A DNA stretch of 64,000 nucleotides from contig JAQGHU010000050.1 in the NCBI GenBank assembly GCA_028291515.1, positions 124,001 to 188,000 of the forward strand, read 5' to 3'. Below the pieces are notes generated by a model, which searched no databases, was not told the origin of the DNA, and saw only the letters and a list, made by a program, of their open reading frames with translations. Shown one piece after another: positions 34,456-58,410 of this stretch. Source of the stretch: Schlesneria sp. GTDB lineage: Bacteria > Planctomycetota > Planctomycetia > Planctomycetales > Planctomycetaceae. The position numbers and the translations under genes were made by a program. Positions within the stretch are counted from its first letter, which is position 1. Each line of letters starts with the position of its first letter.

Positions 34456-34588
34456 ATCGCCACCGAATTCGTCCTCTGTGACCTCCGTGTTTCAAATTCT
34501 TCTTCTCTCCTTGCGATGTCCTCAGCGACTGAAACCAAAGCTCCATCGCGCTGGAGCACTCCCAGGGGCGACACCCGAACCCCACCAG

Positions 34589-35223: not shown

Positions 35224-35290
35224 GCCTCTCCCTGATGTCGAACCCGACAAACGACAGCCTGCAAATGGCAAGATACGTTGATGCTGGACC

Positions 35291-35764
35291 TTATTTGCCA
35301 GTGGCATTCCTCGACTGACTCAAACGGGAAATGATGGAACGCCTTACAGAGATTGCTGCGGAGGAAACACCAGGCTCCAAATCTTCATCCCGCGACATGC
35401 GCTCCAGTGCAGGCAATGCCGCCACGACACTTTCGTCTTTCAACTCAAGCAACAATCCAACCGCTCCATCACGCGAATACCAGGAGTCGTCGTCGAGATG
35501 ACGGATCAAATGACGGGCGACTGATTGTCCGGCTCCGTGTGCCTCCATAAACTGAACGAGATCGAGTTCCCGTGAGTAGCTTTGCTCAAGATTTCCGGCG
35601 GGCATCCTTCGCGGCGTACGGAAAAGATAGTCAAGATAAAGCAGCTCACTTTGCACGCAGATTGTGGGAATATTGGCCAGAAACACTCCGATCAAACAGC
35701 CCAACATACACGCCACGAGCGTCTCGCGATTGCGAAATAGTCTCATGGTTTTCCGCTCGCCCAT
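35291..35764 (-). CDS. Small membrane-anchored protein with HEAT-like helical repeats
   Basis: 157 residues (151 if the second Met is used). A membrane helix at about 16-32 (LVACMLGCLIGVFLANI) is followed by a soluble part with paired helices: SVARHLIRHLDDDSWYSRDGAVGLLLEL (given in fragments RHLIRHLDDDSW, GAVGLLLELKDES) then VVAALPALERMSRD, as in HEAT/PBS-lyase repeats. It lies upstream of copy R1 of the cassette repeat and of the SUKH-like gene, same strand. Its function is unknown. Confidence 0.65.
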   Translation of the reverse strand: MGERKTMRLFRNRETLVACMLGCLIGVFLANIPTICVQSELLYLDYLFRTPRRMPAGNLEQSYSRELDLVQFMEAHGAGQSVARHLIRHLDDDSWYSRDGAVGLLLELKDESVVAALPALERMSRDEDLEPGVSSAAISVRRSIISRLSQSRNATGK

Positions 35765-35818
35765 TCTCTTAGAAGTTATTCACGGGGAACTCTTCGACCT
35801 GTCCCGTTTCAGGGACCG

Positions 35819-37237: not shown

Positions 37238-37318
37238 GAAGCCTCGCTTGTTGTCTGCATCAGCCTTGCTGAGCGGACCGGTTGTCTGGAACTCGAACCA
37301 AATCTCGTGTTGACTGCA

Positions 37319-40161: not shown

Positions 40162-40376
40162 GCCGATTTCTGCATCGGCTCAGCCGAGCAGAGATGAGCT
40201 GCGATAGCTCGCCGACATCCCGTTGACATGACGATATAACCGGACTACCGCCATTGGCAACCAGTCCATATCGAATACACAACTCATCCGTCAGTCCCAT
40301 CTCTCGCATTGCATAAACTGCTTGCACATCACGGTTAGTATGCCGGCCTCTGTGTATCCTGTTAATATTTGGCGAT

Positions 40377-41324
40377 TCATTCGCGAACCGCGGCAACACG
40401 AAAGCCACCCAGGTTACCTTCGGGTTCCGGGGAGGCACCATCCCGAGACGCTGATCGGCAATGATCGGCATCGGAGACCCATGAGCCTCCGCGGTGCATG
40501 ACTATGTCCCCGGAATCAGAATTGGGGTCTCGACCTCCCGGAAGCTCGATGCTATACCGGTCGCTACACCATTCCCAGACGTTCCCATACATGTCTTTCA
40601 GCCCCCAAGGATTCGGCTTCTTCAGTCCGACGACGTGGGCATTGTCCTCCTGTTTTTTATAGGCATTTTCGTAAAACCAGGCATAGTCCTCCAATTCCGC
40701 CCCAACATCACCGAACGAAAACCTTGTCTTCGTACCTGCACGACATGCATATTCCCATTGCGCCTCGGTTGGCAATGCATATTTCCACCCTTGGGGCAAT
40801 CGCCCCTCTTTGCGTTCATTAGTAGTGAGCCTCGCGCAATATGAAGCGGCATCTTGATGATTGATGTGGCAGGCCGCGACATTCTCCCATCCTTTCCCCG
40901 AGTGTTGGCCGCTCTAGGTCGATATCTCCATCAGCTTCCGCCACTGGCCTTCGGTAACTTCCGTTTCGCCAAGCCAAAATCCCTTTGTTAACGTTACATT
41001 CACTTGATCTTCATCACGATGTCGACCGCGTTCTTCCTCTGGACTTCCCATGGTAAACACTCCCGGTGGACACCAGCGATAGACAGTTCCAGCAAGTTCG
41101 AGACGATCACCGGCGTTTTTCCCTTCGACAACCGAAATTGCTGGCGATCCCGATTCAAGAGTGATCGAGTTTTTAAACAACGCACCTGCATCTTCCGAAC
41201 TCCTGGAAACGCCTGAATTGAGTGCGAATCGCAACAGGAGAAGAAACACCAGAACAATCAGAGAAACAACGCAATATGCCTTAACAACTGAAGAACACCA
41301 TTTCATCTTTATAGCCTTCTCCAA
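40377..41324 (-). pseudogene. SUMF1/formylglycine-generating-enzyme-like gene broken by one in-frame TAG
   Basis: Frame of 315 sense positions with one TAG at 40914-40916; everything else is in register across it. A membrane helix lies at about 17-33. The first part has WCPPGVFTMGSPEEE and TLTKGFWLGETEVTEGQW; after the stop come WENVAACHINHQDAASYC, LPTEAQWEYACRAG, NPWGLKDMYGNVWEW, HRGGSWVSDADHCRSASR and GGFRVA, all standard for the FGE-sulfatase domain. Relatives often read PWSGQ at this place; TGG to TAG would explain the stop, followed here by SGQ. As it stands the product would end after about 136 residues, before the core fold. A sequencing error or readthrough is possible. It sits between paralogues B and C. 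Confidence 0.82.
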
Positions 41325-41415
41325 TCTAGGAGCACGGCAAAGGGGTCAGGTCCACTTGAGGCTGTGCCGAGTACCCCAGTTATCTAGAACCGAGCCGATC
41401 GCTTTATCGTCTGCA

Positions 41416-42729
41416 TCATTTGTCGAGCGGAAAGTCGCGGACCTTTTCGTAGAGCGAATTGAGTCGCTCCATCGTTTCCGGGGAATTCAGGGCCTTGTCA
41501 GCAGACACGTTGTAGAGAGCCGCAAGTTCCTTGAGCAACTGCTTCGGCTCTGTTTCGGCAAACAGAGCGATAAAGAACACCGGCCGATCCGATTTCTCGC
41601 TGGCAGGCATCAGCAAGAACGATTCCTGCAACGGTTTGGAATCCTCTGCCTCGCGAATTACCCAGCACGCATCCTTCTGAGCTGGGAACCAGTCGTCTAG
41701 GCACCAGTCTTCGCACGGGTTGGTGTCAGTGTCGTATCGGCTCATTTCTTCATCGTTCGCGGCCCAGATCAACGGTGTAGGTAGCAACATCGCGTTATGA
41801 TTGCCGACCTTCACTTGGTGCTGAGTACAGGTCATTGAACGGACGAGATTAGACGTCTCTGGAGCTTCGGGGCGCATCGCCCCGTTGCCATCTACCAAAG
41901 CATAGGCGGGGAATTTTCGAACCGACTTTCCTTCGCGGATCATGACCCACCGTAAACGCGAATTCTTGGCGAATGGGGCAGTTGAAATGAACTCGCCCTG
42001 CAGCGTTGCGCCGCCCGATACCCCTAACCTGAGCGAGGAGGCCTCATCAGCAAGCATCCCGTTGCGGTCATACCTCGGAGACGTCACCATTTTCCCGGCC
42101 CTGAGGAGTAGATCTCCGTCCACAAATATTCCTGGCGACAGACCAGATCCATGTGGCATCGCAGGTGTTGCTACCGGGGTCACGCTCTTACGCCCGCGCT
42201 GAAACACAATTGTGCGTCCAAATTGGGAGGGGAGTTTATCAAACGCCTTGTCGATTGTCCTCCATCCTAAGTCTTTAGCTCGTACGGACGCAGACCAAGC
42301 TGCCAACTGAGCCGGCCGGGGCAGCAGCAGCAGGGGAACTGTCACATCTCGATCGTAGACGGGATTGCATGACGCAGGAAATATCGCCTCTCCTGGGATA
42401 CGCTTGTTAAAGTAGCGGCCTCTCATCAACGACGGCGCCTCTATCGCCTCGCGAATCTCGCCGATGTAGGCTGACGTCGCAACGATGTATTCTTCAGGCA
42501 TGCCAACCAGCGCCTCGCCGCTAATCGACTCATCGCTGTCGCTCGCTTCGAGGCGCTTAAGCCGGGACTCGGCATCCTCATGCCCTCGAAATCCCACATA
42601 CACCTCGGGGATCGCCAACGTTGTCTTCACCGCATCGTTCACTTGAGCCATACTCACTTCACTGCAAAGAGCAACACAGATCACGCACACAAAAAGACCA
42701 CCATGACTAATGCCAATTATCTTATGCAT
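41416..42729 (-). CDS. Paralogue family protein C with conserved C-terminal module
   Basis: 437 residues; unrecognised, third member of the family. Here the N-terminus is a cleavable signal peptide (about 1-28, ending SMAQ) rather than an anchor. Landmarks shared with A and B: LVGMPEEY, NPVYDRDVTVPLLLLPRP, LGWRTIDKA, GRTIVFQRG, LLRAGKMVTSPRYD, LVDGNGAMR, LLLPTPLIWA. The last 98 residues differ from A at only about 3 positions while many third codon positions differ, so the module is under strong purifying selection. Downstream of the stop all three share AAATGATGCAGAC-like bases. Confidence 0.8.
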   Translation of the reverse strand: MHKIIGISHGGLFVCVICVALCSEVSMAQVNDAVKTTLAIPEVYVGFRGHEDAESRLKRLEASDSDESISGEALVGMPEEYIVATSAYIGEIREAIEAPSLMRGRYFNKRIPGEAIFPASCNPVYDRDVTVPLLLLPRPAQLAAWSASVRAKDLGWRTIDKAFDKLPSQFGRTIVFQRGRKSVTPVATPAMPHGSGLSPGIFVDGDLLLRAGKMVTSPRYDRNGMLADEASSLRLGVSGGATLQGEFISTAPFAKNSRLRWVMIREGKSVRKFPAYALVDGNGAMRPEAPETSNLVRSMTCTQHQVKVGNHNAMLLPTPLIWAANDEEMSRYDTDTNPCEDWCLDDWFPAQKDACWVIREAEDSKPLQESFLLMPASEKSDRPVFFIALFAETEPKQLLKELAALYNVSADKALNSPETMERLNSLYEKVRDFPLDK

Positions 42730-42770
42730 TTCTTCTTGCCTGTGAACGCCGACTGATTTACATCAGTGCC

Positions 42771-43196
42771 CTATCGCGAAAAAAAGGCGGCTGCGTCAAG
42801 CCCGCTTGGATTCGGATCGACCTCCTCTACGGGAACGCTCTGTTGAGGATAGTAATTGTCGACGTTCACTGTTCCAGAAATCCCTCTGAGCACGTTTCCA
42901 AAGCGAGTTCGAATCGCTGGGTCAGTATGCCATGGCTGTGGTTCACCAGGGCGCTTTGCCTGCCAGAGTTGTCGATTCGGCGAATACTCCGTCCTCGTAA
43001 TGCTCGAGTATCTATAATAGTTCGGGCTAGTCATAATCTCAGGCACAGCGATCGTCGACACAGCATTCAGGCTCGCATACGGCCCATTCACTAGTGAATA
43101 CTGCGGATCCACAAGCCAATAATTTGCACCATTCTGAACCACGATCATGTTATGACCTGTAGATTCTCCATTTTTAACTCCAAATACATCTATAAA
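42771..43196 (-). pseudogene. In-frame continuation of the LEPR protein: rest of the peptidase-like domain
   Basis: Directly in register with the preceding frame after a single TAA at 43197-43199: the 142 codons read FIDVFGVKNGESTGHNMIVV, then NGANYWLVDPQ, and end SGLDAAAFFSR. STGHNMIVV and WLVDPQ supply the His and Asp expected for the cysteine-peptidase/transglutaminase-like fold whose Cys (FDCDDYA) lies before the stop. The first Met here is at codon 17 (43148), after the His, so a separate product would lack it. The piece therefore looks like the detached end of one gene rather than an independent one. Confidence 0.75.
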
Positions 43197-46100
43197 TTAA
43201 ATATAAATACTGTCATCTCTAACAAAATGCCTGTTGAGGTAGTTATACATTGCATCTGCGTAATCGTCGCAATCAAACCCAGTTTTTGGTTGCTGGGTGA
43301 CAACGTATCCAAACCACGAAGTCTTTTTGTTCGTGTCTTTTACGTAAAAGCCTTTATTTGCCACGTCCCCGAGCCTTGAATCATCGACCACGTCCTTTAG
43401 GTCTCGGGTAAATGCTGCCTTTGCCTGATTTGCCGCTGCGGCAGTCACTTGTTGCCCGGGAGTCGGTCCATCACTGATCGCCAGTGTGGCAGCGCCCTGA
43501 CTCAATGCGTTCATTGCGTATGTCACGACCGCGCCGAACGCGGTGCTATCCTGACTGATTTTCTGCTTCGCAGCATCGCCTTCGATGTCGCTGACTTCCT
43601 GTGCGGCAGTGGCCTGAGCATTCACTGCGGCCAATGCGTCAGCAGCTTCGGCGTTTGCAGCCGCCTGTGTTGCGGATGAGGCAGTAATGATTGCTTGATT
43701 ACCGGCATTGACTTCGGCGTCCGCGGCCGTCTGTATTGCCGGAGCTACCGTCGTGGCGAACGTATTTGCGTCGGCTGCTAGCGTGTTGGTCACCAGTGTC
43801 GCTGCTGTTGTGACCGTGTTGGATCGCGTCTTGGCGTGGTCAGCCTGATCATTGTGGTAGGTCAGCCAGCCGCCGGCGACATCGTGGTTCCATTGGTTGC
43901 TGGCGTCCATGTAGGCCTTCGACGCCGAGTAGCCGGACGTGGTCCTCGCAATGTCGAACGTGTACGATGCGGCGTTGATCGCGGCCTGGTAGGTCGCGTA
44001 AGGATCGCCTCCGGAGCCGGCCCAATTGTTCCAGGCTGTAATCGCCGCGCCGTCGATGGCGATCTCTTCCTGCTCCATGGCATCGGCATCAGCCTTCATT
44101 TTGGCGGTGTAGGCATCGCCCAGCGCCAGTTCGTATTGCTGCGCGAGGCCGTTGATCGCATGTGAATACGTGTCTCCTGCATCCGCATCCGCATTCGATT
44201 GAGTCGCCAGCGCGGCATCGATCGCCAGTGATAACGCGAGATTCGCGGCCGCATCATCGATCACTTGAGTTTCCGCCAACGCATCCAACTGGATCTGATA
44301 AGCCGTCTCGGCCGCCGTATCGGCCAGCAGTTGAGTCTGCTCGGCGGAATCGATGGCCAGCATCTCTGTTTCAGCCGCCGCCGCATCGTTCTGCTGCTGA
44401 GTGGCCGCATCAGCATCGATCGCATGGACAAACACATCTTGTGCGGTCGCATCGTTATTGGAAGCAGTCTGCGCCGCCGTCGCTTCCTGGGCAATCTCTG
44501 TTTCGTAGGCGCTGACCATCGTAGCTTCATATGCTGCCAAAGCATCTGCCAAGTCGCCTGCGGTCGCATTAGGGTCATTGGCCACGGCATTGTACGCCGC
44601 ATCGGCATTCGTCTGCGCCGTGCTGAACGCCAGTTCCGCTGCCGCCGTCGCGCTGTCATACGTCGCCTCATCGCTGGTCAGAGCTGATTGCAGGGCGGTC
44701 CACGCCGTTCCATATGCCGCATCATATGCCGCTTGATCGGCAGCCACCGTATTCTGATAGGCATCGTCCGCTGCTGAGCCAGCAGATTCATAAGCAGCCA
44801 AATCTTGCAGTTCTGTTTGGAACACGGCATTCGAGGCCGCGGCGGCACCCGCGGCATACGTCGCCTGATCGGCAGCGATTGTGGCCGTATTGGCGGCCTG
44901 GGCACTGGTCGCAGTGCCGGTGTAGGCGGCCAGATCGGAAGCGATCGCCGCATTGTAGGTGTCTTGAGCCGGTTGAGCGCCCGACTGGTAGGTTGTCCAA
45001 GCCCCATTCGAGGCGGACGTGTAGGTCGCCTGATCGCTGGCTTCGGCCTGGGCTGCGGTGGACTGCGCCGAAGAGACCGCGGCCAGGTAACCCGAATCTT
45101 GCGACAGGTTGAAATAGCCGCCGCTCGATGAGGCACCGCCGTTGGACATCGCATTCATCAAGGCCGTGCTGGCGGCGGACTGCGCAGACAGCATCGCCGC
45201 ATAGGCGACCGTCCATGCGGCTTGACTGGTGGCATTCGCCGCCGTGTCGGTGGCGGTCTGGGTGGCGCTGGCCGTGTTCTTCACCGCCTGATACGTCGTC
45301 CACGACGTGTTGTCCGCGGTCGACTGAGTTTGCCAGGCCGTGGAGACGGACGAATTATAGGCGTTCTGAGCGGACTGATCCGCGGCCGATTGGGCCGCCG
45401 CAGCGGATGATTCGATGTTCCCCTCGATCTGCTCAGCCGCCTGATCCTGGCTAGCCTCGGTCGCGATGGCCCCGGCTTCCGCCGTGTTCAGTTGGTTCTG
45501 TGCCGCCTGATCGTTGGCATACTTCGCGTTCAAGGCGTTTTGTACGGCTGTATTGTACAGGTCGACTGCGTTCTGGTCCGAGGCATTGGCGGTGGTTTGA
45601 TCCGCCGCGATTGTCTGGTAGTAGGTGTTGTTAGCTGCCGCCAACGCGGCCAGGATCGCATCCAACGCAGGGTCGCCGGTCGACGTGCCACCGCCGGAGG
45701 ATCCAGAACCCGAAGAACTGCCGGATCCACTCCCTGACGAAGACGTGCTTCCCGAACCGCTGCCTGAGGACGAGCCACTACCACTGCCGGAGGTCGAACT
45801 GCTTCCGCTCCCGCTTCCTGAGCCGGAACCAGAACCGAGGGCGACTTGGTCAGCCAGGGAGAGGGCCGATGTGCCGCTCGAGGTGGTCACGGTCACATCG
45901 ACGGTGCCCGTCAAGCTCGACGGGACGGTTGCCATGATGGAAGTGCTCGACAGCACCATGAAGCTAACGCTCTGCCCACCGACGGTGACGGTCGAAACGT
46001 TGACGAAGTTCGTGCCGGTGATCGTCAGCGAACCGCTGGCGGGTGGAGTCACGCCGGTGACGGTCGGCGGCACCTGCGCCGCCGTGAACGTGAAATGATC

Positions 46101-47039
46101 GACGGTCGAGGCTGAGGACATCCCGCTCGCGGACACCACGACGACGTCCACCGTCCCCGCGGACTCGGCAGGCGCCACCGCGGTGATCGACGAATCCGAG
46201 TTGACCGTGAACGATGTGGCGAGCGTGCTGCCGAAGTAGACCTGCGTGGCTTGGTTGAAGCCCGAACCGCTGATGTAAACCGTCGTCCCACCGGTCGTGC
46301 TGCCGGAGCCATTCATCAGGCCAGAAACAACCGGGGCTGACGACCCGCTGGATGAGCCGGATCCGCTACCGCTGCCAGAGGTCGAACTGCTCCCGCTTCC
46401 GGAGGTGGATGTGCTGCCCGAGCCACTCCCCGAGGAAGATCCGCTGCCAGAGCCGGATGACGATCCACTCCCCGACGTGGAGGTGCTCCCCGAACCGCTA
46501 CCTGATGAAGAGCCGCTTCCGGATCCACTGGCGGGCTGGATCGTGACTGTGACCGTCGCTGTGGACTGATCGCCCGCCGCGTCAGAAACGGTGTACGTGA
46601 ACGTCTCGGTGCCGGTGTAACCGTAAGTCGGCGTGAACAGCAACTGGTCGGGGGCTGAACTTCCCGATCCGCTGCCTGACGAACTGCCACTTCCACTCCC
46701 CGACGAACTGCCGCTACCACTGCTGGCATGCTGGATCGACACCGAGCCATAGCCCGGTGTCTGCACCGACGTAATCGTCATCGCGCCGCCCGTGCTGGTA
46801 TCGTTGGACAGCACGTCCAGCAGCATCGGTGGCGCGGTCAGCGTCTGGGCATCCTGTTGCTCCTGGTAGCTGTCATTCACCGCAGCGACGGCACTCATCA
46901 CCCGGCGGGGTTCCAGGACTTCCACCATCGCCGCAACGTTCGACAGGGACTGCGCCCGCCGAGGGGTGACTTTGAGACGCTCCTGCGTGTTAAACCCGAG
47001 ACGACTTCGCAATGCCACCAACCAGTTGAACAACAGCAT
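43197..47039 (-). CDS. LEPR-motif surface protein: Ser-Gly repeats, IPT folds, Ala-rich rod, split cysteine-peptidase-like end
   Basis: 1280 residues. Residues 42-45 are LEPR (VEVLEPRRVMSA), the planctomycete LEPR-xLL type targeting motif. A cadherin/VCBS-like repeat follows (DVLSNDTS, TPTYGYTGTETFTYTVSD). Ser-Gly stretches (GSGSSSGSGS units) at about 107-130, 170-232 and 400-450 link two IPT/TIG folds (GGTTVYISGSGFNQATQV; SGSLTITGTNFVNVSTV). From about 470 to 1190 there is an Ala/Gln/Thr/Asp-rich rod, probably helical. The C-terminus has GFDCDDYADAMYNYL (Cys1257), a cysteine-peptidase/transglutaminase-like nucleophile site, but a TAA stop cuts the domain 23 residues later; the missing half is in frame downstream. 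A large secreted or wall-located protein is likely. Confidence 0.88.
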   Translation of the reverse strand: MLLFNWLVALRSRLGFNTQERLKVTPRRAQSLSNVAAMVEVLEPRRVMSAVAAVNDSYQEQQDAQTLTAPPMLLDVLSNDTSTGGAMTITSVQTPGYGSVSIQHASSGSGSSSGSGSGSSSGSGSGSSAPDQLLFTPTYGYTGTETFTYTVSDAAGDQSTATVTVTIQPASGSGSGSSSGSGSGSTSTSGSGSSSGSGSGSSSGSGSGSTSTSGSGSSSTSGSGSGSGSSSGSSAPVVSGLMNGSGSTTGGTTVYISGSGFNQATQVYFGSTLATSFTVNSDSSITAVAPAESAGTVDVVVVSASGMSSASTVDHFTFTAAQVPPTVTGVTPPASGSLTITGTNFVNVSTVTVGGQSVSFMVLSSTSIMATVPSSLTGTVDVTVTTSSGTSALSLADQVALGSGSGSGSGSGSSSTSGSGSGSSSGSGSGSTSSSGSGSGSSSGSGSSGGGTSTGDPALDAILAALAAANNTYYQTIAADQTTANASDQNAVDLYNTAVQNALNAKYANDQAAQNQLNTAEAGAIATEASQDQAAEQIEGNIESSAAAAQSAADQSAQNAYNSSVSTAWQTQSTADNTSWTTYQAVKNTASATQTATDTAANATSQAAWTVAYAAMLSAQSAASTALMNAMSNGGASSSGGYFNLSQDSGYLAAVSSAQSTAAQAEASDQATYTSASNGAWTTYQSGAQPAQDTYNAAIASDLAAYTGTATSAQAANTATIAADQATYAAGAAAASNAVFQTELQDLAAYESAGSAADDAYQNTVAADQAAYDAAYGTAWTALQSALTSDEATYDSATAAAELAFSTAQTNADAAYNAVANDPNATAGDLADALAAYEATMVSAYETEIAQEATAAQTASNNDATAQDVFVHAIDADAATQQQNDAAAAETEMLAIDSAEQTQLLADTAAETAYQIQLDALAETQVIDDAAANLALSLAIDAALATQSNADADAGDTYSHAINGLAQQYELALGDAYTAKMKADADAMEQEEIAIDGAAITAWNNWAGSGGDPYATYQAAINAASYTFDIARTTSGYSASKAYMDASNQWNHDVAGGWLTYHNDQADHAKTRSNTVTTAATLVTNTLAADANTFATTVAPAIQTAADAEVNAGNQAIITASSATQAAANAEAADALAAVNAQATAAQEVSDIEGDAAKQKISQDSTAFGAVVTYAMNALSQGAATLAISDGPTPGQQVTAAAANQAKAAFTRDLKDVVDDSRLGDVANKGFYVKDTNKKTSWFGYVVTQQPKTGFDCDDYADAMYNYLNRHFVRDDSIYI

Positions 47040-47596
47040 CAGATGCGCTCCATCAGAGTTTCGTGTGACCAGTCAGCCAGCACTGGTCACGGCCCCGCCA
47101 CGAAAAACCGAACATCTCATCTGGAAAACCGAAGACTTCTCGCCGACCATTCCACCCGCATTGCTACGATCAGAGTCACTTGCTGTTCGCCGATAAAACG
47201 AACACAGACCGAACGAGAACAGACAAAACACCACAGACAGGATGACTACATTGGAAATGCGAGTAGAACAGCGATACACCAGTGCTTCAAGATGAGACGC
47301 GGAACGCTACGGCGATTCGGCGCACCTTACCAGACTGCCCTTGGTTACTGACGATTAATTCAGAATCTCGCCAAGATGAAACACCCGCACAATAACGAAA
47401 TCGTTATTTTTTAGAGCGATCGGAAGAGGCCCAAGGCCACTTGATACCGCACCGGGAAATGCTGCAGCAACTGCTGCTGTGGCCCGGGTCCGATGGCGAC
47501 TTGTCGGCGTTCACGCAGCGATTAACAGTCATGCCTGTCACGCTCAGGCAGAAGCACCGGCGCCGAGTCGGTGAAGGTCTTGCACCAAGACACGCT
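47040..47596. other. Region without intact gene, downstream of a truncated sulfatase
   Basis: The part next to 47597 follows the truncated sulfatase where the rest of that gene would be expected, but no frame there shows sulfatase motifs. The frame 47404-47697 (minus) has a Cys/Arg/Ser-rich, unnatural composition. The part near 47040 holds the promoter of the LEPR gene. I see nothing else. Confidence 0.45.
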
Positions 47597-47974
47597 TCAC
47601 GTCGTTTCCCGTCGAGACAGCGTATTTTCGTCGAGATTCGTAGGACAATTCTTATTTTTCGTCGGACCGATTGGCAAGTGCCAGACGGTGCGGCCACACA
47701 TGATCATGTGCCGCGACGGAGTGCAGACCGCACCAGTGAAAGACCCCATCTGGTAAGCTCGATCCAGAACCATTCCCTCAGCCGCCAAGCGGTCAATGTT
47801 GGGAGTATTCAGCGTTGAGCGAGAATCGTAAGCTTTCAGATCAAACGGCGACTGATCATCGACAATGATGAACAGGATGTTTGGCTTCCTGGTCTGTTTC
47901 TGCCCCTCAGCAGCAAGGAGATAGGCTGGGGAAGTCAGCAGCAACCCAGTCATGATTAGAACAGAAAGTTTCAT
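47597..47974 (-). pseudogene. Truncated sulfatase, N-terminal fragment
   Basis: About 125 residues from the ATG at 47972-47974, which begins a signal peptide (MKLSVLIMTGLLLTS, ending LLAAEG). It then shows the sulfatase start KPNILFIIVDDQSP, TPNIDRLAAEGM and the formylglycine motif CTPSR (Cys84 to Arg88) in GAVCTPSRHMIMCGRTVW, typical of choline/iduronate-type sulfatases. A normal enzyme has 450-600 residues; here the frame ends after NLDENTLSRRETT. The catalytic half is gone, so it should be inactive. It lies 46 bp from the end of the intact sulfatase gene. Confidence 0.82.
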
Positions 47975-48019
47975 GGCGTGACGCTTATAGAGATGCATGA
48001 GATCTGATCGAGCACTCGT

Positions 48020-49384
48020 TCAGTCAGTCGTGTCGTTGGGAACGGACCCTTTCTTCCCTTTCGTGATCTTAGGATCGATGGGTGCGTTCGGAGCAGCCTG
48101 CTCTTTGTTCCAAGCATCATAGAGTTTTCGTAGTTCTTTCACCTTCTTCGGATCTTCAGCCGCCAGATCCTGCTTTTCCCCAATGTCATTGGCGAGGTCG
48201 TACAATTCAGGCTGTTCGCTTCCCCCTTCGGCAACGACGAGTTTGTGGTTTCCATGTCGCACCGCCCATTGCTCGCCGTATCTCCAGAATAGCGATTCAT
48301 GCGGCTGCCCCGTGTTTTGGCCGGTCAGATACGGCACCAGATCCACTCCATCCACTTTCCATTCGGGTTCGATCTTACCACCCGCCGCAGTGACGATGGT
48401 GGGAAGCAGGTCCAACTGGATCACCGGTTGCTGGTAAACCTTTCCCGCAGGGAGATGGCCTTTCCACTGCATGCAGAACGGGACACGAATACCGCCTTCC
48501 CAAGTCGTCGCTTTCACTCCGCGCAGTGGCAAATTGCTGGAGGTCGTGGACTTGCTTGGTCCACCGTTGTCGGACAGAAAAATGATAAGCGTATTCTCTT
48601 CCTGACCAAGTTCGCGGATCTTATTCAGCACGCGACCGACACTATCGTCCATCGCGGACATCATGGCGGCGAAGGTACGTCGCTTTTTGTCACTGATATG
48701 CTGGAAGCGGTCCAGATAAAATTGCGGAGCTTCCAACGGATTGTGCTGCGCATTAAATGGCAGGTAAACAAACCAGGGCTGCTCGTGATGCTTCTCAATC
48801 CAATCGGGCACACGAATCCCGTATTGCTCTGTTGTGTAGAACTGATCATCCTCGATCTCCATCACCTTCGGAGATTGCCGGGTATCGACAAACAGCGTGG
48901 GGTGAAAGTAAGACGTATTGGCCAGCGTCCCGTAGAATTCGTCGAAGCCGCGCTTCAGCGGATGGTATTTCGCGACTTCTCCCAGGTGCCATTTGCCCGC
49001 GGCACAGGTGGAATATCCCAGCGGCTTCAATCGATCGGCGATCGTTTTTTCGTTGACATCCAGCCCCAGCTTTTTCATACCGCTATTGGATTCGTGACCA
49101 AATCGCGTCTGATATCGTCCGGTCATCAAACCGGCCCGCGTCGGACTGCAAACCGGGCATGAGACGTATCCCTGCGTGAACTTCACGCCACTGGCCGCGA
49201 TGGAATCGATATGCGGAGTCGGAATGTCGCGAGCACCTTGGAAGCCATATTCCGCCCAACCGACATCATCGGAAAGAATTAACAGCACATTGGGCTTAGA
49301 CTCTGCGGCATCCAAATGGATCGAGGCCAAGCCGATCAGGCATGCAGCCCCCACGAACACGCCAGAGAAAAAACGCCGAATCAT
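48020..49384 (-). CDS. Arylsulfatase-type sulfatase, exported
   Basis: 454 residues from the ATG at 49382-49384, chosen because GGAG lies 6 bases upstream; the frame runs on to 49606 but that part overlaps the end of the next gene. Signal peptide about 1-27 (ending HLDAAES). Metal-binding start PNVLLILSDDVGWAEYG; formylglycine site CSPTR (Cys79 to Arg83); GKWHLGE for the active-site Lys/His; FLSDNGGPS for further metal ligands. The C-terminal part has LFWRYGEQWAVRHGNHKLV. It removes sulfate esters, in Planctomycetes often from algal polysaccharides. Needs a formylglycine-generating enzyme; the nearby SUMF1-like gene is broken, so another must serve. Confidence 0.95.
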   Translation of the reverse strand: MIRRFFSGVFVGAACLIGLASIHLDAAESKPNVLLILSDDVGWAEYGFQGARDIPTPHIDSIAASGVKFTQGYVSCPVCSPTRAGLMTGRYQTRFGHESNSGMKKLGLDVNEKTIADRLKPLGYSTCAAGKWHLGEVAKYHPLKRGFDEFYGTLANTSYFHPTLFVDTRQSPKVMEIEDDQFYTTEQYGIRVPDWIEKHHEQPWFVYLPFNAQHNPLEAPQFYLDRFQHISDKKRRTFAAMMSAMDDSVGRVLNKIRELGQEENTLIIFLSDNGGPSKSTTSSNLPLRGVKATTWEGGIRVPFCMQWKGHLPAGKVYQQPVIQLDLLPTIVTAAGGKIEPEWKVDGVDLVPYLTGQNTGQPHESLFWRYGEQWAVRHGNHKLVVAEGGSEQPELYDLANDIGEKQDLAAEDPKKVKELRKLYDAWNKEQAAPNAPIDPKITKGKKGSVPNDTTD

Positions 49385-49463
49385 TCCATACTCCATGTGA
49401 AACAAATCTTGCAGGTGGTTCCTGAGCAGCCAAGGCTCATTGCCGCAGCTTACGCGATACCGA

Positions 49464-50537
<1,074 letters not shown>

Positions 50538-50768
50538 GAATAGATTCCTCTCATCAATATTCGACGATGCAGCTACCCAGGATACGGGCGAGCCGTCTGA
50601 TGATTCAGCGGCAGAATGTCGTCGGCGAGGGCGCTTTTGTTATCATCAAAAATGCGTCTTCACACCAAATTAACGATACGGTTGCTGGAGACGATCAAGC
50701 CCTGGATACAATGGGAGGAGAATCCGCCCGCGATGGACGGGCAGGCCGTTGTCTGGTGAGGAATCTCA

Positions 50769-51347
50769 GTGTCGTCCCCAACGGACCCAGTACCCGATCA
50801 AAATTTAACCGCAGCACAATCGCGCGCACTGCTAGCCCGGAACTGGGGCCATGTTCAGACATCTCTGCTGGCGTTCATCACTGCGTCGGCCCCGCAGTTC
50901 TCAGACGCTGAGGATCTGCTTCAAGAAGTCGCTGTCGAAGTCGCAGTACGATTCGACGAATACGATCACTCGCGGCCGTTCTTGCCTTGGGCTTTATGGA
51001 TCGCCAAAATCAAGATCGCCGAGTTCTACCGCAGCCGACAGCGTCGCCAAGTCATTCTGATGGGTGAGTCCGCAGACGCTCTGGCGGAAGCCTGCGTCAA
51101 GGTTCAGGAAACGCTCTCCGATAAGCAGTTCGCGATTGAAAAATGCCTGGACCGACTGACCGACCGTGCGCGAGAAATGCTGAACCTGAGATACTCGGAA
51201 GGGATGAGTTCCCCGGAAATTGGCGATCGGTTGGGCATGTCGATTCATTATGTGCGAGTCGCCCTCTCGCGGATTCGAACGACACTGACGGAATGCGCTC
51301 AAGCCGCGATCAACGCACCGCCAGCCTTGAATGAGTCGGATTCATGA
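50769..51347 (+). CDS. ECF sigma factor (Rhodopirellula/Verrucomicrobium type)
   Basis: 192 residues. The start is the GTG at 50769, preceded by GAGG with 7-base spacing. Region 2: LLAFITASAPQFSDAEDLLQ, then FLPWALWIAKIKIAEFYR. Region 4: MLNLRYSEGMSSPEIGDRLG, then YVRVALSRIRTTL. Its stop overlaps the start of the next gene by 4 bp (ATGA), indicating a coupled sigma/anti-sigma pair. It has the same architecture as the sigma at 19386. The trigger is unknown. Confidence 0.92.
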   Translation: MSSPTDPVPDQNLTAAQSRALLARNWGHVQTSLLAFITASAPQFSDAEDLLQEVAVEVAVRFDEYDHSRPFLPWALWIAKIKIAEFYRSRQRRQVILMGESADALAEACVKVQETLSDKQFAIEKCLDRLTDRAREMLNLRYSEGMSSPEIGDRLGMSIHYVRVALSRIRTTLTECAQAAINAPPALNESDS

Positions 51348-52540
51348 ACGAGCAGGAGGCACTGGAACTGATCGATGCCCATCTGGACGATGATCATCTG
51401 ACGGATCAGCAGGTCGAAGAACTCAGTGTTTGGCTGCGCGAAAATCCGCAACATGCGGAACACGCCTTTTTTCGCATCTTCCTCCATTCGTTCTTGCGTC
51501 GACGACTGAAAGCCCAGCGTCTGACCACCCAAACTGATTGCACCGATCTGGCCTTGAGAGGCGCTATCGGCATCGACGCATCGACAGAATTGCACGTCTC
51601 CCAACCCACTGCGGTCTCTGTTCCTATCCGTAGAACCTTTCGGCTACGGCAAATCTTACTGGGCGGTGCGATCAGCATCAGTACCGTGTTGCTCGCCTTA
51701 CTATCAATGATATTTTTCAACGCCCCGCCTCAGGCGAAGGCGATTGCCTGCGACGGATTCGATTATCCCGCAACATCAATTCCAGCGCCGGCGATTGACT
51801 CTCAGACCTGGCCGAAGAGGGGAGGAACGCAAGGGCTCAATGGCGGAACCGGCTGGGCAGAACCCTGGCAGGAGTCCGGTTCCAAGGTCTCCGTGATTAT
51901 CGATCATGCGCGCGAAATGAACTGGGATCCCAAAGACATGCGAAAGTTCAAACCACTGGGACACACCGACGCCCAGGGACGCGTCCTGCAATCGACAGGA
52001 CTTCAATTAAGAACCGCGATGGGGCTGCGCTCGGTGACCTCCCGCAAACTCGATCTCAGTTCCTTTCCGAATTCCATGCGAGACGAAGCGGGACTGGGGC
52101 GCGATGGAGCTGTCATCTGGTTCAGTTTTCTCGCGCAATCGTTCAACACCACTTCTGAAAATAGTCGCTTCACCTACCTCCAGCTCGGCTCGCGCGATGT
52201 CTCTGGGTTTCGCATTGGCAAGCTCAGCGCGGCGCCGTCAGGCAACTGGACCGCCATGGGACTCATGACAGGTGGGCAGGTCAATCTCCGCTCCAGCTCT
52301 GTTCCGTCGGCAGAAATGGCTTTCCTGGTGACACGGCTGGAATTTCGCGAGGGCCCCGAAGACGCCGTCGTCTGGATCAATCCGAGCCTAGCCGCCGAAC
52401 CCAAACTTGCCGACGCCACGTTGCGACTCTCTGTCCCGGATTTCCGATTTGACGGGATCTCGATCAACGCGAATTACTCAACAGACATCGACGAAATCCG
52501 CTTCGGTCAAAGCTTTCGAGCCGTCGCGCCCGTCAAATAA
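51344..52540 (+). CDS. Membrane anti-sigma-like protein with large outer beta domain
   Basis: 398 residues. Residues 1-60 resemble the sigma-contacting part of the FecR-type partners (ALELIDAHLDDDHLTDQQVEE). One membrane helix at about 105-127 (ILLGGAISISTVLLALLSMIF). The outer 270 residues (CDGFDYPATS, GGTGWAEPWQESG, WFSFLAQSF, GDTR-like and FDGISINANYSTDIDEIRFG) look like a jelly-roll/LamG-like domain but lack a clear FecR domain. It is coupled to the sigma gene by a 4-bp overlap. A ligand-sensing regulator of that sigma is inferred. Confidence 0.78.
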   Translation: MNEQEALELIDAHLDDDHLTDQQVEELSVWLRENPQHAEHAFFRIFLHSFLRRRLKAQRLTTQTDCTDLALRGAIGIDASTELHVSQPTAVSVPIRRTFRLRQILLGGAISISTVLLALLSMIFFNAPPQAKAIACDGFDYPATSIPAPAIDSQTWPKRGGTQGLNGGTGWAEPWQESGSKVSVIIDHAREMNWDPKDMRKFKPLGHTDAQGRVLQSTGLQLRTAMGLRSVTSRKLDLSSFPNSMRDEAGLGRDGAVIWFSFLAQSFNTTSENSRFTYLQLGSRDVSGFRIGKLSAAPSGNWTAMGLMTGGQVNLRSSSVPSAEMAFLVTRLEFREGPEDAVVWINPSLAAEPKLADATLRLSVPDFRFDGISINANYSTDIDEIRFGQSFRAVAPVK

Positions 52541-52611
52541 TTCGACGTTGACGACCTGATGCTGCTGACTCTGACTCGATCCCGTCGTCATTCCGAATCA
52601 ACTTTACCGTC

Positions 52612-52631
52612 ATTCCCGCGCAGGCGGGAAT
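52612..52631. repeat. dRS3-like 20-mer repeat
   Basis: ATTCCC-GCGCAGGC-GGGAAT with CGTC before and CCAG after, 71 bp after the stop of the anti-sigma-like gene. The next 40 bases (TCGCGATGCAAGAACTC) resemble those after the copies at 20101 and 54192. Confidence 0.8.
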
Positions 52632-52796
52632 CCAGCAAACTGCAGCACGATCGCGATGCAAGAACTCCGACTCTTGTTCCGCATGCGGTGACTAACCCGT
52701 CCTATCGCATCACCAGTGAGACATCTAGCCCGCCTGTTGTTAGAATCGAACTAGCGAGGGATAGAGAGGGGGTTCTTCAGCCTGGCGGAGATCGGC

Positions 52797-54348: not shown

Positions 54349-54867
54349 TCATTGTGGAGTTAACTCGACGGCGACTGCCCACTCTCGAAGATCACGCGGA
54401 CGCTGCAAATAGACTTTCTCGGGAGACCTGCTGTTGCAAAAAGAGCGAAGGCCACCGCCTCGATCAGCAATTCCGAAGCGAAGAGCGATCTTTGTTGTCA
54501 GTAGGTCTCGCCGATTTGCGTAGTGAAAGTCCAATTCGAACGGCGAGAATTCGTTTGGGAAATACCCCACACCGGCGATTGCAAAGGCATTGCGATTGAG
54601 ATCCGTCACGGTCAGTAACGGAATCCCATCACACCACGTGCCAAGGCGTCGCGTGAACGGAATCTCATCGAAGGGGAACCAATACTCCAGCATCAGCGCT
54701 AGGCGGGAATCCGCGATGACTCTTTCTCGGTCGCCAATGTCAGAGAATCGCCATTGCCAAAGAATCCCAGAGATCCGAGCTTCCGGTGAATTCTCCTCGG
54801 TAAGATTTGATGCGGGGAAGGTGTATTCCTTTGTAGTCGAACGTTCAAAGTAACTTGCCCGCGACAA
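54349..54867 (-). CDS. Array gene 5: unrecognised protein
   Basis: About 172 codons from a TTG at 54865-54867 that lies inside repeat copy R2; the true start is uncertain because the first 9 or so codons are repeat sequence in another frame. No family recognised. The composition is that of a real globular protein (LALMLEYWFPFDEIPFTRRL, WCDGIPLLTVTDLN, AGVGYFPNEFSPFELDFHY). No signal peptide. It is the last gene of the minus-strand array. By position it may be an immunity protein; nothing in the sequence proves it. Confidence 0.6.
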   Translation of the reverse strand: MSRASYFERSTTKEYTFPASNLTEENSPEARISGILWQWRFSDIGDRERVIADSRLALMLEYWFPFDEIPFTRRLGTWCDGIPLLTVTDLNRNAFAIAGVGYFPNEFSPFELDFHYANRRDLLTTKIALRFGIADRGGGLRSFCNSRSPEKVYLQRPRDLREWAVAVELTPQ

Positions 54868-54944
54868 ATGACGAGCTTCCGATCAACACACCAACACTTT
54901 GAACCGCCAGCGACTGTGGGTCAAGTTGACCGACTCGCTCGGCT
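54838..54944 (-). repeat. Cassette repeat copy R2
   Basis: One of the fullest copies. On the minus strand one frame reads GQLDPQSLAVQSVGVLIG and ends SSFVAGKLL then TGA, followed by ACGTTCG. It includes GGTCAACTTGACC, a near-palindrome. The segment lies between array genes 4 and 5. The upstream codons in this frame (MFALEAERV) continue only in this copy. Confidence 0.85.
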
Positions 54945-54987
54945 TCGAGCGCGAACATGGATCGATAGCGTTCCGGGGAATGCCACA

Positions 54988-55410
54988 TTAAGTACCGTCG
55001 GAGTCCATCTCGCGTTCGAGTTGACGTAGACCCCACCTCGCGGAAATGTCACCCCGCCGATACTCGGCAAGCAGTTCCGATGTCTGCTTCCGGCGCTCCT
55101 CACGAAAACCGTTCCAATCGGGAAACAGGCCATGACAGTGCCGCCAGACATCGTTGTCGGGTTCGATATTGTGAAGCATCAGATGCGTACGGTAGTGACG
55201 AAGTTGACGTAACGCGCCGATGACATCCATAGGCGTCGACTCAATGGTTTCGTCTGCCCAAATGAGAGCATCAGCCAAAATGTCGTAAGAGATCGTTGGA
55301 TTGGGGGCGGGGATACAAATCGCATTCAAATGCGATGCATGAATCTCCAAAGCCATCATTCCAAATGTTTCGAGATCGACCATCGGCATCTCCTTCGAAG
55401 GCCAAAACAT
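54988..55410 (-). CDS. Array gene 4: unrecognised protein
   Basis: 140 residues. The ATG at 55408-55410 directly follows the end of repeat copy R3 (AGCGTTC then ATG); a second Met-Pro-Met lies 8 codons on. No family recognised. Predicted soluble, mostly helical: FGMMALEIHASHLNAI, YDILADALIWADETI, VIGALRQLRHYRTHL, QTSELLAEYRRGDISARWG. No signal peptide or membrane helix. Candidate immunity or antitoxin-like protein by context only. Confidence 0.65.
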   Translation of the reverse strand: MFWPSKEMPMVDLETFGMMALEIHASHLNAICIPAPNPTISYDILADALIWADETIESTPMDVIGALRQLRHYRTHLMLHNIEPDNDVWRHCHGLFPDWNGFREERRKQTSELLAEYRRGDISARWGLRQLEREMDSDGT

Positions 55411-55503
55411 GAACGCTAAAGTGCCCGCGATTCAGGAGGGGCTTCCAATCAATGCAAGGAGCCTCCAGCAACTGAGGGTCAAGTTGACGGCCTCGTTCGG
55501 CCT
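55411..55503 (-). repeat. Cassette repeat copy R3 (diverged)
   Basis: Shares GAACG-TAAAGT, GCCCGCGA, GCTTCCAATCAA and GGGTCAAGTTGAC with R2 on the plus strand, but the middle (SLAVQSVGV in other copies) is replaced. On minus, one frame starts QLDPQLLEAP. It overlaps the last 25 bases of array gene 3 and ends at the start codon of gene 4. Confidence 0.7.
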
Positions 55504-55922
55504 TGTTGGTCCCATAACCAACCCAAGCCTGCGCATTCGAGGCACTTGACGTTTCGGAGGTGGGCGAATGTGCCCGTGCCTTGGCATGACGAACAATCGG
55601 GAGTTAACGCTGGCCGAATCGGAAGTAGCTCTTGAAGCTCAGGAAATCGCTCGGCCCCAATAACCAGGGCGAGCAACCGACCTTTCGCCGAGTCTTCCCA
55701 AGCATCGTCGTCGTCCCAAGGGAACACCCAGACTCGGCCATCCAAATCGAGCAAAGCCGCACCACCGATATCAGCGTAGACAACAAATGCGTGTTTCTCC
55801 TCGGCGACGCGTCTCACTCCTTTGTCCAGCAAATCGTCGGCAAGACAATTAGCGACACGCCATTGCAAGCAGGCTCGAAGGTGCGCGGAGATTGTCACTG
55901 CGCCAACTCCCTCGCCGAACAT
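55479..55922 (-). CDS. Array gene 3: protein with DnaJ-like zinc motif
   Basis: 147 residues. The ATG overlaps the stop of the repeat-encoded peptide of copy R4 (TGAATG), an arrangement that couples translation. The middle part (HAFVVYADIGGAALLDLDG, given in part, and VWVFPWDDDDAW) looks like a beta-sandwich or SUKH-like strand pair. The C-terminus has CSSCQGTGTF and CLECAGLGW, two CxxCxG-type knuckles as in DnaJ zinc fingers. No full family assignment. Array position suggests an orphan immunity-type gene. Confidence 0.68.
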   Translation of the reverse strand: MFGEGVGAVTISAHLRACLQWRVANCLADDLLDKGVRRVAEEKHAFVVYADIGGAALLDLDGRVWVFPWDDDDAWEDSAKGRLLALVIGAERFPELQELLPIRPALTPDCSSCQGTGTFAHLRNVKCLECAGLGWLWDQQGRTRPST

Positions 55923-56003
55923 TCAAGGTAACTTGCCCGCGACAAACGACGAGCTTCCAGTCAACACGCCGACACTTTGAACCGCCAGTGACTTCAGGTC
56001 AAG
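55916..56003 (-). repeat. Cassette repeat copy R4
   Basis: On minus one frame reads LDLKSLAVQSVGVLTG and ends SSFVAGKLP then TGA, which overlaps the ATG of array gene 3. It shares at least 75 bases with R2 with few changes. The 5' part seen in R2 (GGTCAACTT) is replaced just after GGTCAAG, so the copy is joined to a different upstream sequence. Confidence 0.83.
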
Positions 56004-56084
56004 CAGAAAAGAATTTGGAACAAGTCCCAGACTCATCCCCCGTTCTTGCCCAAAGAGTCTCGTACCCTGAATTCTCAATGAAAC

Positions 56085-56357
56085 TCAAACGCCCGGTTTC
56101 AAGATACCAAGCTGCTGCAGACCCCACACCGTCCCAAGTAGGGTCAACACGAAAGCTGCAAAGCATGTCAGGTAAATCACGGAGAAGTTCATTCGGCGAA
56201 GACAGGGCTCGCAATAACTTCTAGTGAGTTCCCTGCGGAGCACACCATACCTCAACAACAGTGGCAATAGCGCGAAAGCCCCTGTCATCTTCAAAGCAGG
56301 AGACATCGGCTGAAGTTCGCCCGGATCGACATCCTTGCCACATCGATCACACGACAT
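56085..56357 (-). CDS. Array gene 2: small membrane protein with zinc-ribbon-like Cys pairs
   Basis: About 90 residues from the ATG at 56355-56357 (the frame is open 11 codons more). Opens with MSCDRCGKDVDPGEL and has a second pair in YCEPCLRR, a split zinc ribbon; between them is a hydrophobic stretch (MTGAFALLPLLLRYG), and the C-terminal helix VIYLTCFAAFVLTLLGTVWG is a membrane segment. No family recognised. The segment between it and copy R4 also holds an open frame (55999-56214) that I do not support as a gene. Confidence 0.6.
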   Translation of the reverse strand: MSCDRCGKDVDPGELQPMSPALKMTGAFALLPLLLRYGVLRRELTRSYCEPCLRRMNFSVIYLTCFAAFVLTLLGTVWGLQQLGILKPGV

Positions 56358-56400
56358 CTTGAGTCCCTGCATCGAGGTTTGGAAATCCAAGAATCTACGC

Positions 56401-56440
56401 CCAGCGACTGTGGGTCAAGTCGACCGACTCGTTCGGCGCG
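56401..56440 (-). repeat. Cassette repeat copy R5 (short remnant)
   Basis: Only the left part of the repeat remains: CCAGCGACTGTGGGTCAAG followed by CGACCGACTCGTTCGGC on the plus strand, matching R2. On minus one frame reads RLDPQSLG before diverging. It lies between array genes 1 and 2, where a full copy would be expected. Confidence 0.72.
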
Positions 56441-56463
56441 AGTATTGAGCGTAAGAATCGAAG

Positions 56464-57291
56464 TTACCCTGCAATTTCAGCTTCAGCCAAGCCGCTCGCC
56501 AAGTCTCCTTTGATCGCGATCGCATGACCCGCAAACAAGTCGGCACACTCAAACCAAAACTGGAATGTGCCATCATTACCCACTGAGACCGATTGTAGTT
56601 TTATCTTGTTGCGAAACACAGACTCGGTCATTGCGGCCTCACCATCCTGCAGCCAAAAAGAGTTTTTCACCGGAAGCAAATCGGCGGCGGCTTTGTCTCG
56701 GCAGGCGACCATCCACTTTTTCTCCTCGCCCCAGAGAGACTCACACGCCACAGCCGCCGCATCGGGAACCTCCCCTGGTTGTGAGCGAAGACTGATTCGC
56801 ACCTTTTTTCTATCCCATCGCCCAGAGCCATCCCATGTGCAACAAGCGCGATTGAATTTGAATTTCCCCCATCTCTCTGTCGCAAATTCTATAGGCGTTC
56901 TCAGCGATTTAGCGGAAGAGAGCAGTTCAGCATTAACTTCCATCGCCTTCCGTTCTTCCTGAACCACGCCGCGAGTTTCATCCAATGATAAGAACACTCC
57001 AATTTGCCGGATGCTGAAATCTGCATAGTCGTCAAGATACGATTGTTTGAGCGGGACTGGGCGGAGCAACGTGAGTTCATGTTCTACCACTGGTCCACCT
57101 AGTCTGCACCAGGCACCGAACGCAATGCGGTGCACCATGTAGTCGCCTGAGGCCCCGAAAGTGCCACCCTGGCCGGGAAGGACTACACCTTCAATGACCT
57201 CCAACTTCTCGCTATAGGGAACGCCCCAGCCATCGATTTCTGATAGAGCATTCAGGCCAGGTGGCAAAAACACAGTCGCCATATGATCCAC
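56464..57291 (-). CDS. Array gene 1: DUF2262-domain protein, probable immunity protein
   Basis: 275 residues. The start is a GTG at 57289-57291 with an ATG three codons later. The C-terminal 100 residues match the DUF2262 pattern as I know it: WMVACRDKAAADLLPVKNS, then MTESVFRNKIKLQSVSV, DGTFQFWFECADLFAGH and the ending AEAEIAG. The N-terminal half (FGASGDYMVHRIAFGAWCR, HELTLLRPVPLKQSYLDDY) has no assignment. DUF2262 proteins often occur in polymorphic-toxin neighbourhoods, so an immunity role is inferred; no toxin is next to it here. Confidence 0.75.
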   Translation of the reverse strand: MDHMATVFLPPGLNALSEIDGWGVPYSEKLEVIEGVVLPGQGGTFGASGDYMVHRIAFGAWCRLGGPVVEHELTLLRPVPLKQSYLDDYADFSIRQIGVFLSLDETRGVVQEERKAMEVNAELLSSAKSLRTPIEFATERWGKFKFNRACCTWDGSGRWDRKKVRISLRSQPGEVPDAAAVACESLWGEEKKWMVACRDKAAADLLPVKNSFWLQDGEAAMTESVFRNKIKLQSVSVGNDGTFQFWFECADLFAGHAIAIKGDLASGLAEAEIAG

Positions 57292-57308
57292 CAGACTTTG
57301 GTCGTAGC

Positions 57309-57417
57309 CGAACGTTTATAGTAACTTGCCCATGATCAACAGCGGGCGCCCGATGAACACGCCAACACTCTGAACCGCCAACGACTGCGGGTCAAGTTGA
57401 CCATCTCATTCGGCTGA
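57309..57417 (-). repeat. Cassette repeat copy R6
   Basis: Full-length copy heading the array. On minus one frame reads GQLDPQSLAVQSVGVFIG and ends MGKLL then TAA, with ACGTTCGGC after it as in R2 and R4. A TGA precedes the QLDPQ segment by two codons, so no longer protein is joined to it here: only the short tail survives. Confidence 0.83.
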
Positions 57418-58410
57418 CTTGGAGCGAATTGGACGCTCTGCGTTTAGTGGTCTACTCGTGTCGCACAGCGTGACTTCCACCATGGCGTCAATCGAAATCG
57501 CGATCTGTCACAAAACTTCCACTTTTTTGAGGAAAACTGCCAAAAACAGGGTCGTTTTGTCCCCCATCGTCAAAAATTGTCCGTGGCTGTCAAAATCTGT
57601 CAATGACATGCCACGCAGCGCGGCTCATCTGAAGGTCCGACGCGGCCCTCTCCGGACATTTTCACCGCAAATTGCCGAAATAGGCAAAACACCATCTAGC
57701 TCCGCGCACACCGAAATGGCATAACGACTCAATGAATATGTAACGACATTCAGTGGACCGTAACCAACGGCCACACCTGTTGACCCCTAAACCGGGTCGA
57801 CAAGTGTGGCCGTTTTTTTGTTGGAGGCAGATCGATGTGTCAGGCGCTACACCCCCAATCGCAAAATCTCGCTAGACATCTCGCTGACAAAATGGGTACC
57901 CCCCAAAAACCTGCCATGGACTGACAAATTCTGCCATTTCGTAAGGTTCGAGCCTCCGACTGCACACGATCAGAGCCAACTGCGAATGAACAACTCCCCA
58001 TCCAGAATCAAAACACCGCGACCCGCCAAAGGCCGTACTCGCTCACGCCAACCCCTCATTCCCAATCCAGCGGAGGTTGTGTCATGCGCGACCTCAATTC
58101 GGCGTAGCCAATCTCGCCAAGAGATTGGGCGGAAGTCGATATGCGAACGACCTCAACTCACATTCCCCCAAGGTCTTGGCGACCTTGGCTACAAGAGCGT
58201 CACGCGATCGGGGAGTTGTGTCATGCACGATCTCAAAATCCGTGTGCATCCGTGTCAATCCGTGGCCCCGCCTTCTCATTCCAGGTTCTGTCATGAACTT
58301 TTCCGTCGCTTGGCCCTCAGCCCTCGCCCCTCAGCCGCACTCCCGGCACTGACTTCATCACCCCCCCGTGTTAGACTGGTTCTGTCACACGGCACTTTGC
58401 GGAGCCCGGT
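57418..58410. other. Intergenic region with orphan terminator and small repeats
   Basis: No recognisable gene. The open frame 57419-57724 (plus, 101 codons) ends 40 bp before a strong terminator but has no protein-like pattern I can support. The terminator is at 57766-57820. Two similar 8-bp hairpins with loops GCCAA and TTGGC occur at 58108-58128 and 58168-58188, and three near-tandem ATCCGTG words at 58238-58265. The last 100 bases should hold the promoter of the next gene. Confidence 0.5.
57766..57820 (+). terminator. Strong Rho-independent terminator without a recognised gene upstream
   Basis: A 21-bp stem (57766-57786 with 57794-57814) containing one GU pair and one mismatch, with a 7-base loop, followed by seven T at 57813-57819. 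Orientation is plus. The nearest plus-strand gene upstream (PrsW) ends 3.6 kb away, so it should close a transcript starting between 57300 and 57750. Confidence 0.85.

Follow-up and report, generated by a model that had tools for sequence, protein, structure and literature searches.

The DNA stretch analyzed here, called the window in the following, comprises 64,000 nucleotides of Schlesneria sp. (assembly GCA_028291515.1, contig JAQGHU010000050.1, positions 124,001 to 188,000). On its minus strand, five consecutive genes (54349-57417) each have a copy of the same ~108-nt repeat in front of them, and a sixth copy (R1) is located 20 kb away. This repeat is the attC site of integrons. The array is, with little doubt, an integron cassette array without an integrase of its own, i.e. 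a cluster of attC sites lacking integron-integrases (CALIN), and it differs by one cassette from the array at the same locus of a sister species. The initial annotation, made from the letters alone, had pointed to the six copies, which are recovered by BLAST and a covariance model, and had described a cassette-like array built around a possible recombination site; the identity of the repeat and the different content at one locus in the two species bear this out.

Two copies of the main array are full over 108 nt, namely R6 (57307-57414, minus strand like all sites and genes described below; covariance model 113.2 bits, E 1.1e-27), which is the first site of the array, and R2 (54836-54943; 118.6 bits, E 3.5e-29). 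The other three are damaged. R3 (55401-55501; 52.9 bits, E 4e-11) has a decayed 3' half, R4 (55914-56019; 74.7 bits, E 4.1e-17) shows a diverged 5' end, and R5 (56401-56437) is a remnant of the R''-L'' side that keeps the first 37 nt (BLAST, 94.6% identity over 37 nt, E 2.7e-11) with the rest missing and that gives no covariance-model match at E ≤ 0.05. Four model matches and one remnant are thus clustered within 2.6 kb with no integrase near, and a CALIN is defined by at least two clustered attC sites in such a setting. Neither a functional intI nor an attI, which a complete integron would have, was seen at the window array.

Read along the genes, the repeat starts with GCCGAAC, ends with GTTCGGC, and has the consensus inner arms GGTCAACTTGACCCGC and GCGGGCAAGTTACC. 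This order matches the layout R''-spacer-L''-loop-L'-spacer-R' given for attC sites (PMC8352920). Among the 21 full sites, the R''/R' boxes GCCGAAC/GTTCGGC with their AAC/GTT core are paired in 93.2% of cells and the L arms (GGT-C-AACTTG-A-CCCGC against GGTAACTTGCCCGC) in 92.5%. Over R boxes and L arms together, 92.7% of the base-pair cells are standard, a value that drops to 19-44% upon shifting one side by 1-3 columns. The L'' arm carries two bases beyond the complement of the L' arm, which stay unpaired; extra-helical bases of attC sites are described in PMC12901181. The first site of the stretch L103 is built differently but shows, by eye, the same extra-base pattern. A further shared element is the stretch GTGTCCTTCGTGGTGAA, found directly 5' of four attC-like sites on three contigs (L047 6330 and 6846; L048 6840; L050 6549).

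The repeat occurs far beyond the window, both in its own genome (G000) and in congeners. A covariance model built from the 21 full sites (150 candidates scored per genome, E ≤ 0.01) yielded 54 matches in G000 and 59 in the sister species G012 among 10 genomes scanned; six other congeners gave 25, 20, 17, 17, 15, and 8 matches, and the remaining two none. Plain BLAST with the repeat detected it in 8 of 14 relatives of the same genus and, weakly (E 1.3e-4), in one of 25 more distant relatives. An exact-pattern search of a collection with one genome per species (84,980 species, the window's own genome possibly not among them) returned 13 stretches, all from metagenome-assembled genomes (MAGs) named Schlesneria or from the planctomycete MAG SZAS-6. 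Counted on 41 listed of the 54 sites, G000 harbors at least 15 attC loci: seven of these 15 hold a single site, and the eight others several sites in the same orientation at gene-sized spacing.

The array of the window can be compared directly with its counterpart on L109, a stretch of G012, where the flanking genes are the same and the flanks 89-95% identical. Of the five genes, four occur in both arrays, with ~95% nucleotide and 96.6-100% protein identity. The first cassette differs: the window holds a DUF2262 gene, whose best match in L109 reaches only E 0.27, and G012 an unrelated open reading frame (ORF) of 192 aa. At the upstream edge, homology extends into R6 as far as GGGCAAGTTAC and breaks off a few bases short of the R' cut point; downstream, it restarts just behind the next attC of L109. 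The counterpart of the latter site in the window is the truncated R5, at which the downstream edge is less sharp, and a stricter run places this edge at 5626/5610 (oriented coordinates), beyond the 20-bp tolerance used in the edge test described below. The replacement gene of G012 (L109:4836-5414) has, by eye, a signal-like start, and its product matches Hsp70 over positions 389-492, in the later part of the profile (E 1.4e-18).

Similar differences are found elsewhere. Six more loci of G000 (C60, C80:290k, C102, two on C109, and C42) can be paired with G012 arrays through a flank or leader, and the inner content of the paired arrays diverges far more than the flanks. Of 18 inner homology ends, 13 are located no more than 20 bp from an attC site (5.5 expected, p ~3e-4). 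This test is approximate, since the ends were taken manually from six pairs, five more that fell outside the arrays were left out, and homology is able to run through similar attC sites. Copied cassettes show the same borders at base resolution. Two contigs of G011 (L106 and L118) share a PDDEXK_3-family cassette (589 bp, 96% identical), the common part running from the R' box of the preceding attC to the cassette's own R' box; the PDDEXK_3-family gene appears again on G000:C102 (83% identical), starting at R'. On two contigs of G012 (L104 and L113), a block of two cassettes recurs at 91-93% with its edges at attC ends. Altogether, 13 related pairs are present among 105 cassette ORFs, and of the 84 intervals shorter than 2.5 kb in all fetched arrays, 71 have their longest ORF in the direction of the attC.

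Integrases were searched with the NCBI integron-integrase model at its cut-off, which was exceeded in 11 of 40 genomes, G000 among them. The single gene over the cut-off in G000 resides on contig C32, a contig other than that of the window, and is adjoined by six listed attC sites in a row (C32:29063-33998). Its product is truncated: similarity to the solved integron integrase 2a3v covers chain residues 19-234 only, the C-terminal catalytic part is lacking in an alignment with three full-length integrases, and this part was not found by eye in the three frames of the strand over the next ~430 bp. The missing part is the one that holds the HTLRHS stretch and the catalytic tyrosine. As the G000 assembly consists of 119 contigs (completeness 100%, contamination 3.5%), a further integrase copy may have been missed. 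In the sister species, the integrase on G012:C188 matches 2a3v over residues 4-317 of 317 and has its own adjoining attC array. The two integrases are 50% identical and hence belong to different integrons. An alignment of the C32 integron with G012:C74 is limited to the integrase segment and attC sites.

Five integrase regions from other planctomycete genera served as a control. In three of them (G017, G024, and G035), direct repeats of attC layout lie ~3 kb or less from the integrase. The boxes GCCGAAC/GTTCGGC are present in both G035 repeats and in one of the two G017 copies; the second G017 copy ends with GTTATGC and the G024 repeats with GTTATC. The attC-type repeats of G035 (L221:414-504 and 842-931) are located 3' of the integron integrase amid more tandem-like repeats. 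The integron-integrase match in L061 (G017:C207:74049-75014) extends over nearly the whole profile and contains one internal TGA.

On G012:C188, the integrase is separated from the first cassette by a segment whose last bases are ...AATTCTGTCTAATTACAG|TT. Two cassette arrays without an adjoining integrase, G000:C60 (L041:5100-5257) and G012:C129 (L108:3947-4093), carry some 140-150 bp of this segment at 91-93% identity. The similarity stops at or a few bases past ACAG|TT, after which each array has a different first cassette. Among 10 genomes searched, matches were obtained in G000 and G012 only, plus one weak match in G000:C116 (E 1.9e-4). We read this segment as a putative attI, which would have been copied to, or left without intI at, C60 and C129.

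The window array has a different start. Upstream of R6 lies a dispersed non-coding leader repeat of ~500 bp (57456-58097, minus strand), and similar sequence stands upstream of other attC loci. No Rfam family matched it up to E 1. Many copies are present in G000 and G012 and none in the 10 other congeners (12 genomes searched); in its wider family, similarity is restricted to the two ends. For six of the 15 listed attC loci of G000, the 2.5 kb upstream contain a leader copy on the same strand (0.05 loci expected). Of the longer copies situated no more than 8 kb from a listed attC site of G000 or G012, 13 of 14 are upstream of it in the same orientation; since the copies are largely common to both sister species, the loci are not independent between them. 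Most remaining longer copies have no attC near. Among 31 additional leader stretches, four contain a covariance-model match (E < 0.01), including the C104 locus already counted.

The integron integrase (IntI) recognizes attC through its bottom strand in folded form, cleaves it within the R' box (GTT..., at G/TT), and joins the ends. Applied to the window, each cassette would consist of a short gene with the attC behind it, and an integrase made elsewhere in the genome would act on the array, so that cassettes enter and leave exactly between R' boxes. An integrase is inferred to have acted in trans on the window array. With a truncated gene as the only G000 integrase found over the cut-off, and with several sites of the window decayed, the array would no longer be served in G000, and the system is probably idle there now. 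No clear gene precedes the first attC of the array, and no recognizable attC follows its last gene; R6 is therefore most likely the entry site, and the far end would be decayed or chromosomal. Tentatively, these loci might form a distributed integron, in which a single integrase locus would act in trans on many separate landing platforms. A number of these could then, with similar reserve, have an attI of their own without intI (G000:C60 and G012:C129) and others the leader and a first attC (the window and G012:C85). If so, cassettes would be loaded at many chromosomal places under different neighbors and not into one array.

Several observations weigh against the assignment of the array to an integron. 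One is the unusual start and end just described. The 7-base R-box consensus has Y/R at its fourth place, against G/C in the sites found here. Covariation does not exceed that of shuffles: a single pair shows a double change, which is reached by 207 of 500 shuffles, and the pairing is consequently a property of the shared sequence and not independent proof of structural selection. In 7 of 21 sites, folding of the bottom strand places the attC form at the free optimum or no more than 0.2 kcal/mol above it; in R2 and R6, this form lies above the free optimum by 8 and 2 kcal/mol, respectively. When folded freely, the window sites score no better than shuffles, with bottom-strand z-scores of -0.99 (R2) and -0.90 (R6) and values worse than the mean shuffle for R4 (+1.75) and R1 (+0.76). 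Two of the five control regions have no attC-type repeat (none at all in G018, one that is not attC-like in G037), and 5 of the 18 inner homology ends lie away from attC.

The last observation bears on the alternative that survives best, which we consider rather improbable: the repeats would be attC relics, and the array would change by RecA-type homologous recombination between them and not by an integrase. Repeated homologous recombination had already been put forward in the initial annotation to account for the different break points of the copies. Besides the five homology ends away from attC, it is favored by the truncation of the sole G000 integrase over the cut-off and by the different kinds of damage in R3, R4, and R5. 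Homologous exchange would, however, spread the edges over the repeat, whereas the base-by-base edges of exchanged and copied cassettes lie at the R' side of attC, so it is not the best account of those cases; moreover, a sister species possesses an intact integrase.

The proposal that derives the repeat from the 3' tail of a toxin or core gene, and regards the genes as orphan immunity genes left by the evolution of polymorphic toxins, has become highly implausible. The frame on which it was built, ending LDPQSLAVQSVGVLIG..GKL-stop, is real and shared, and variation by codon position (0.088, 0.101, and 0.136) is slightly highest at the third position, but a stop or frame shift breaks the frame in 7 of the 21 full sites. 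The sites stand between unrelated genes, an imperfect palindrome is conserved, and a gene tail leaves the inverted-repeat anatomy and the integrase adjoining the sites unexplained; a genome-wide search for a full-length gene with this tail was not part of the analysis. The cassette products do include a DUF2262 protein and SUKH proteins, although the majority belong to no family. In total, 39 Pfam families were found at E ≤ 0.001 for the 92 scanned cassette proteins; among the 25 families listed are at least three PDDEXK_3, at least three SUKH, and at least one DUF2262 protein, the rest being scattered. On this listing, SUKH or DUF2262 accounts for at least four of the 92 proteins, so that orphan immunity does not hold as a general description, and this fits the mixed content known from integron cassettes and not an immunity locus. 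The literature search retrieved nothing on DUF2262 as an immunity family, a label that stems from the initial annotation. Equally hard to credit is a plain dispersed (MITE-like) repeat family placed between genes by chance, which draws on the leader as a true dispersed repeat adjoining the array and on the seven single-site loci, since eight listed loci have several sites in one orientation at gene-sized spacing and the units between the sites differ or recur as whole cassettes.

Assigned to integrons, the array can be placed among known systems. Integrons of Planctomycetota have been published (PMC2426708, PMC8618304, PMC8352920, PMC9668308). For a single genus, CALINs at a number of fixed loci are on record (PMC12444791), and CALIN cassettes are stated to be open to mobilization in trans (PMC9668308, PMC12444791). 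Like published CALINs (PMC12444791, PMC8618304), and as reported for Xanthomonas, those described here occupy conserved chromosomal positions. They differ in that their sites are of one sequence type confined to the genus save for one weak match, in that 6 of the 15 listed loci have a shared leader, and in number, with at least 15 loci in one genome versus 7 loci across species in the Xanthomonas account. A sedentary chromosomal integron is resembled by G012:C188, with integrase, attI-like segment, and attC array in the usual order; here, in contrast, the cassettes are spread over many loci, and the integrase of the window genome is truncated. Orphan immunity loci share DUF2262 and some SUKH products with the arrays and differ in that such products are few here and the order is set by recombination sites. 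Integrases are reportedly able to insert cassettes at non-classical attG sites (work ascribed to Loot, 2024). Such insertion is also mentioned in PMC12444791 and PMC12901181.

Among the titles listed in a literature search, none dealt with integrons in Schlesneria; the one paper to pair the two terms is a fish-gut review, apparently unrelated. Integrons in planctomycetes being known, less usual are the number of loci, the two attI copies away from an integrase, and the leader before six loci. An unexplained repeat is now a named recombination site, and the cassette arrays of Schlesneria are added to the planctomycete record. Pairs of sister genomes allow cassette exchange to be read base by base at many integrase-free arrays, and it becomes possible to test directly whether a distant integrase serves such arrays in trans.

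The five genes of the window array have no mutual relationship at E ≤ 1e-5 for any pair, in agreement with the initial annotation. Pfam yielded one match over the cut-off, two below it, and none for two genes. Cassette gene 1 (56464-57291, 275 aa) encodes the DUF2262 protein proposed before (PF10020, E 1.6e-27). Cassette gene 2 (56085-56390, 101 aa) shows, by eye, two CxxC pairs and hydrophobic stretches and is 96.9% identical in L109 over 98 aa. Cassette gene 3 (55479-55922, 147 aa) has a CxxCxGxG-type C-terminus with weak matches to the Anti-TRAP and DnaJ zinc motifs, below the Pfam cut-off; it is 96.6% identical in L109, where the G012 version is interrupted by a stop codon. Cassette gene 4 (54988-55410, 140 aa) is 100% identical in L109 and matches 24 proteins at E ≤ 0.001 and no Pfam family. 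The last gene (54349-54867), with 45 proteins at E ≤ 0.001, likewise matched no Pfam family; its listed TTG start falls within R2, and the real start is probably at or after 54831. Its structure is predicted confidently (pLDDT 91), and structure comparison gave no clear relative.

Outside the array, R1 (35128-35232, minus strand; 67.8 bits, E 3.3e-15) is a decayed, single attC-like copy. The gene behind it (34589-35140, minus strand, 183 aa) had been called SUKH-like, a label that finds no backing: the protein has no Pfam match at E ≤ 0.01, none of six aligned proteins has one at E ≤ 5, and the predicted structure is too poor for use (pLDDT 48). Five proteins match at E ≤ 0.001, one being the window's own. 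About 18 kb of the window (34451-52695), including R1 and its gene, are absent from L109 (9441-9291), where the two flanking stretches lie only ~150 bp apart.

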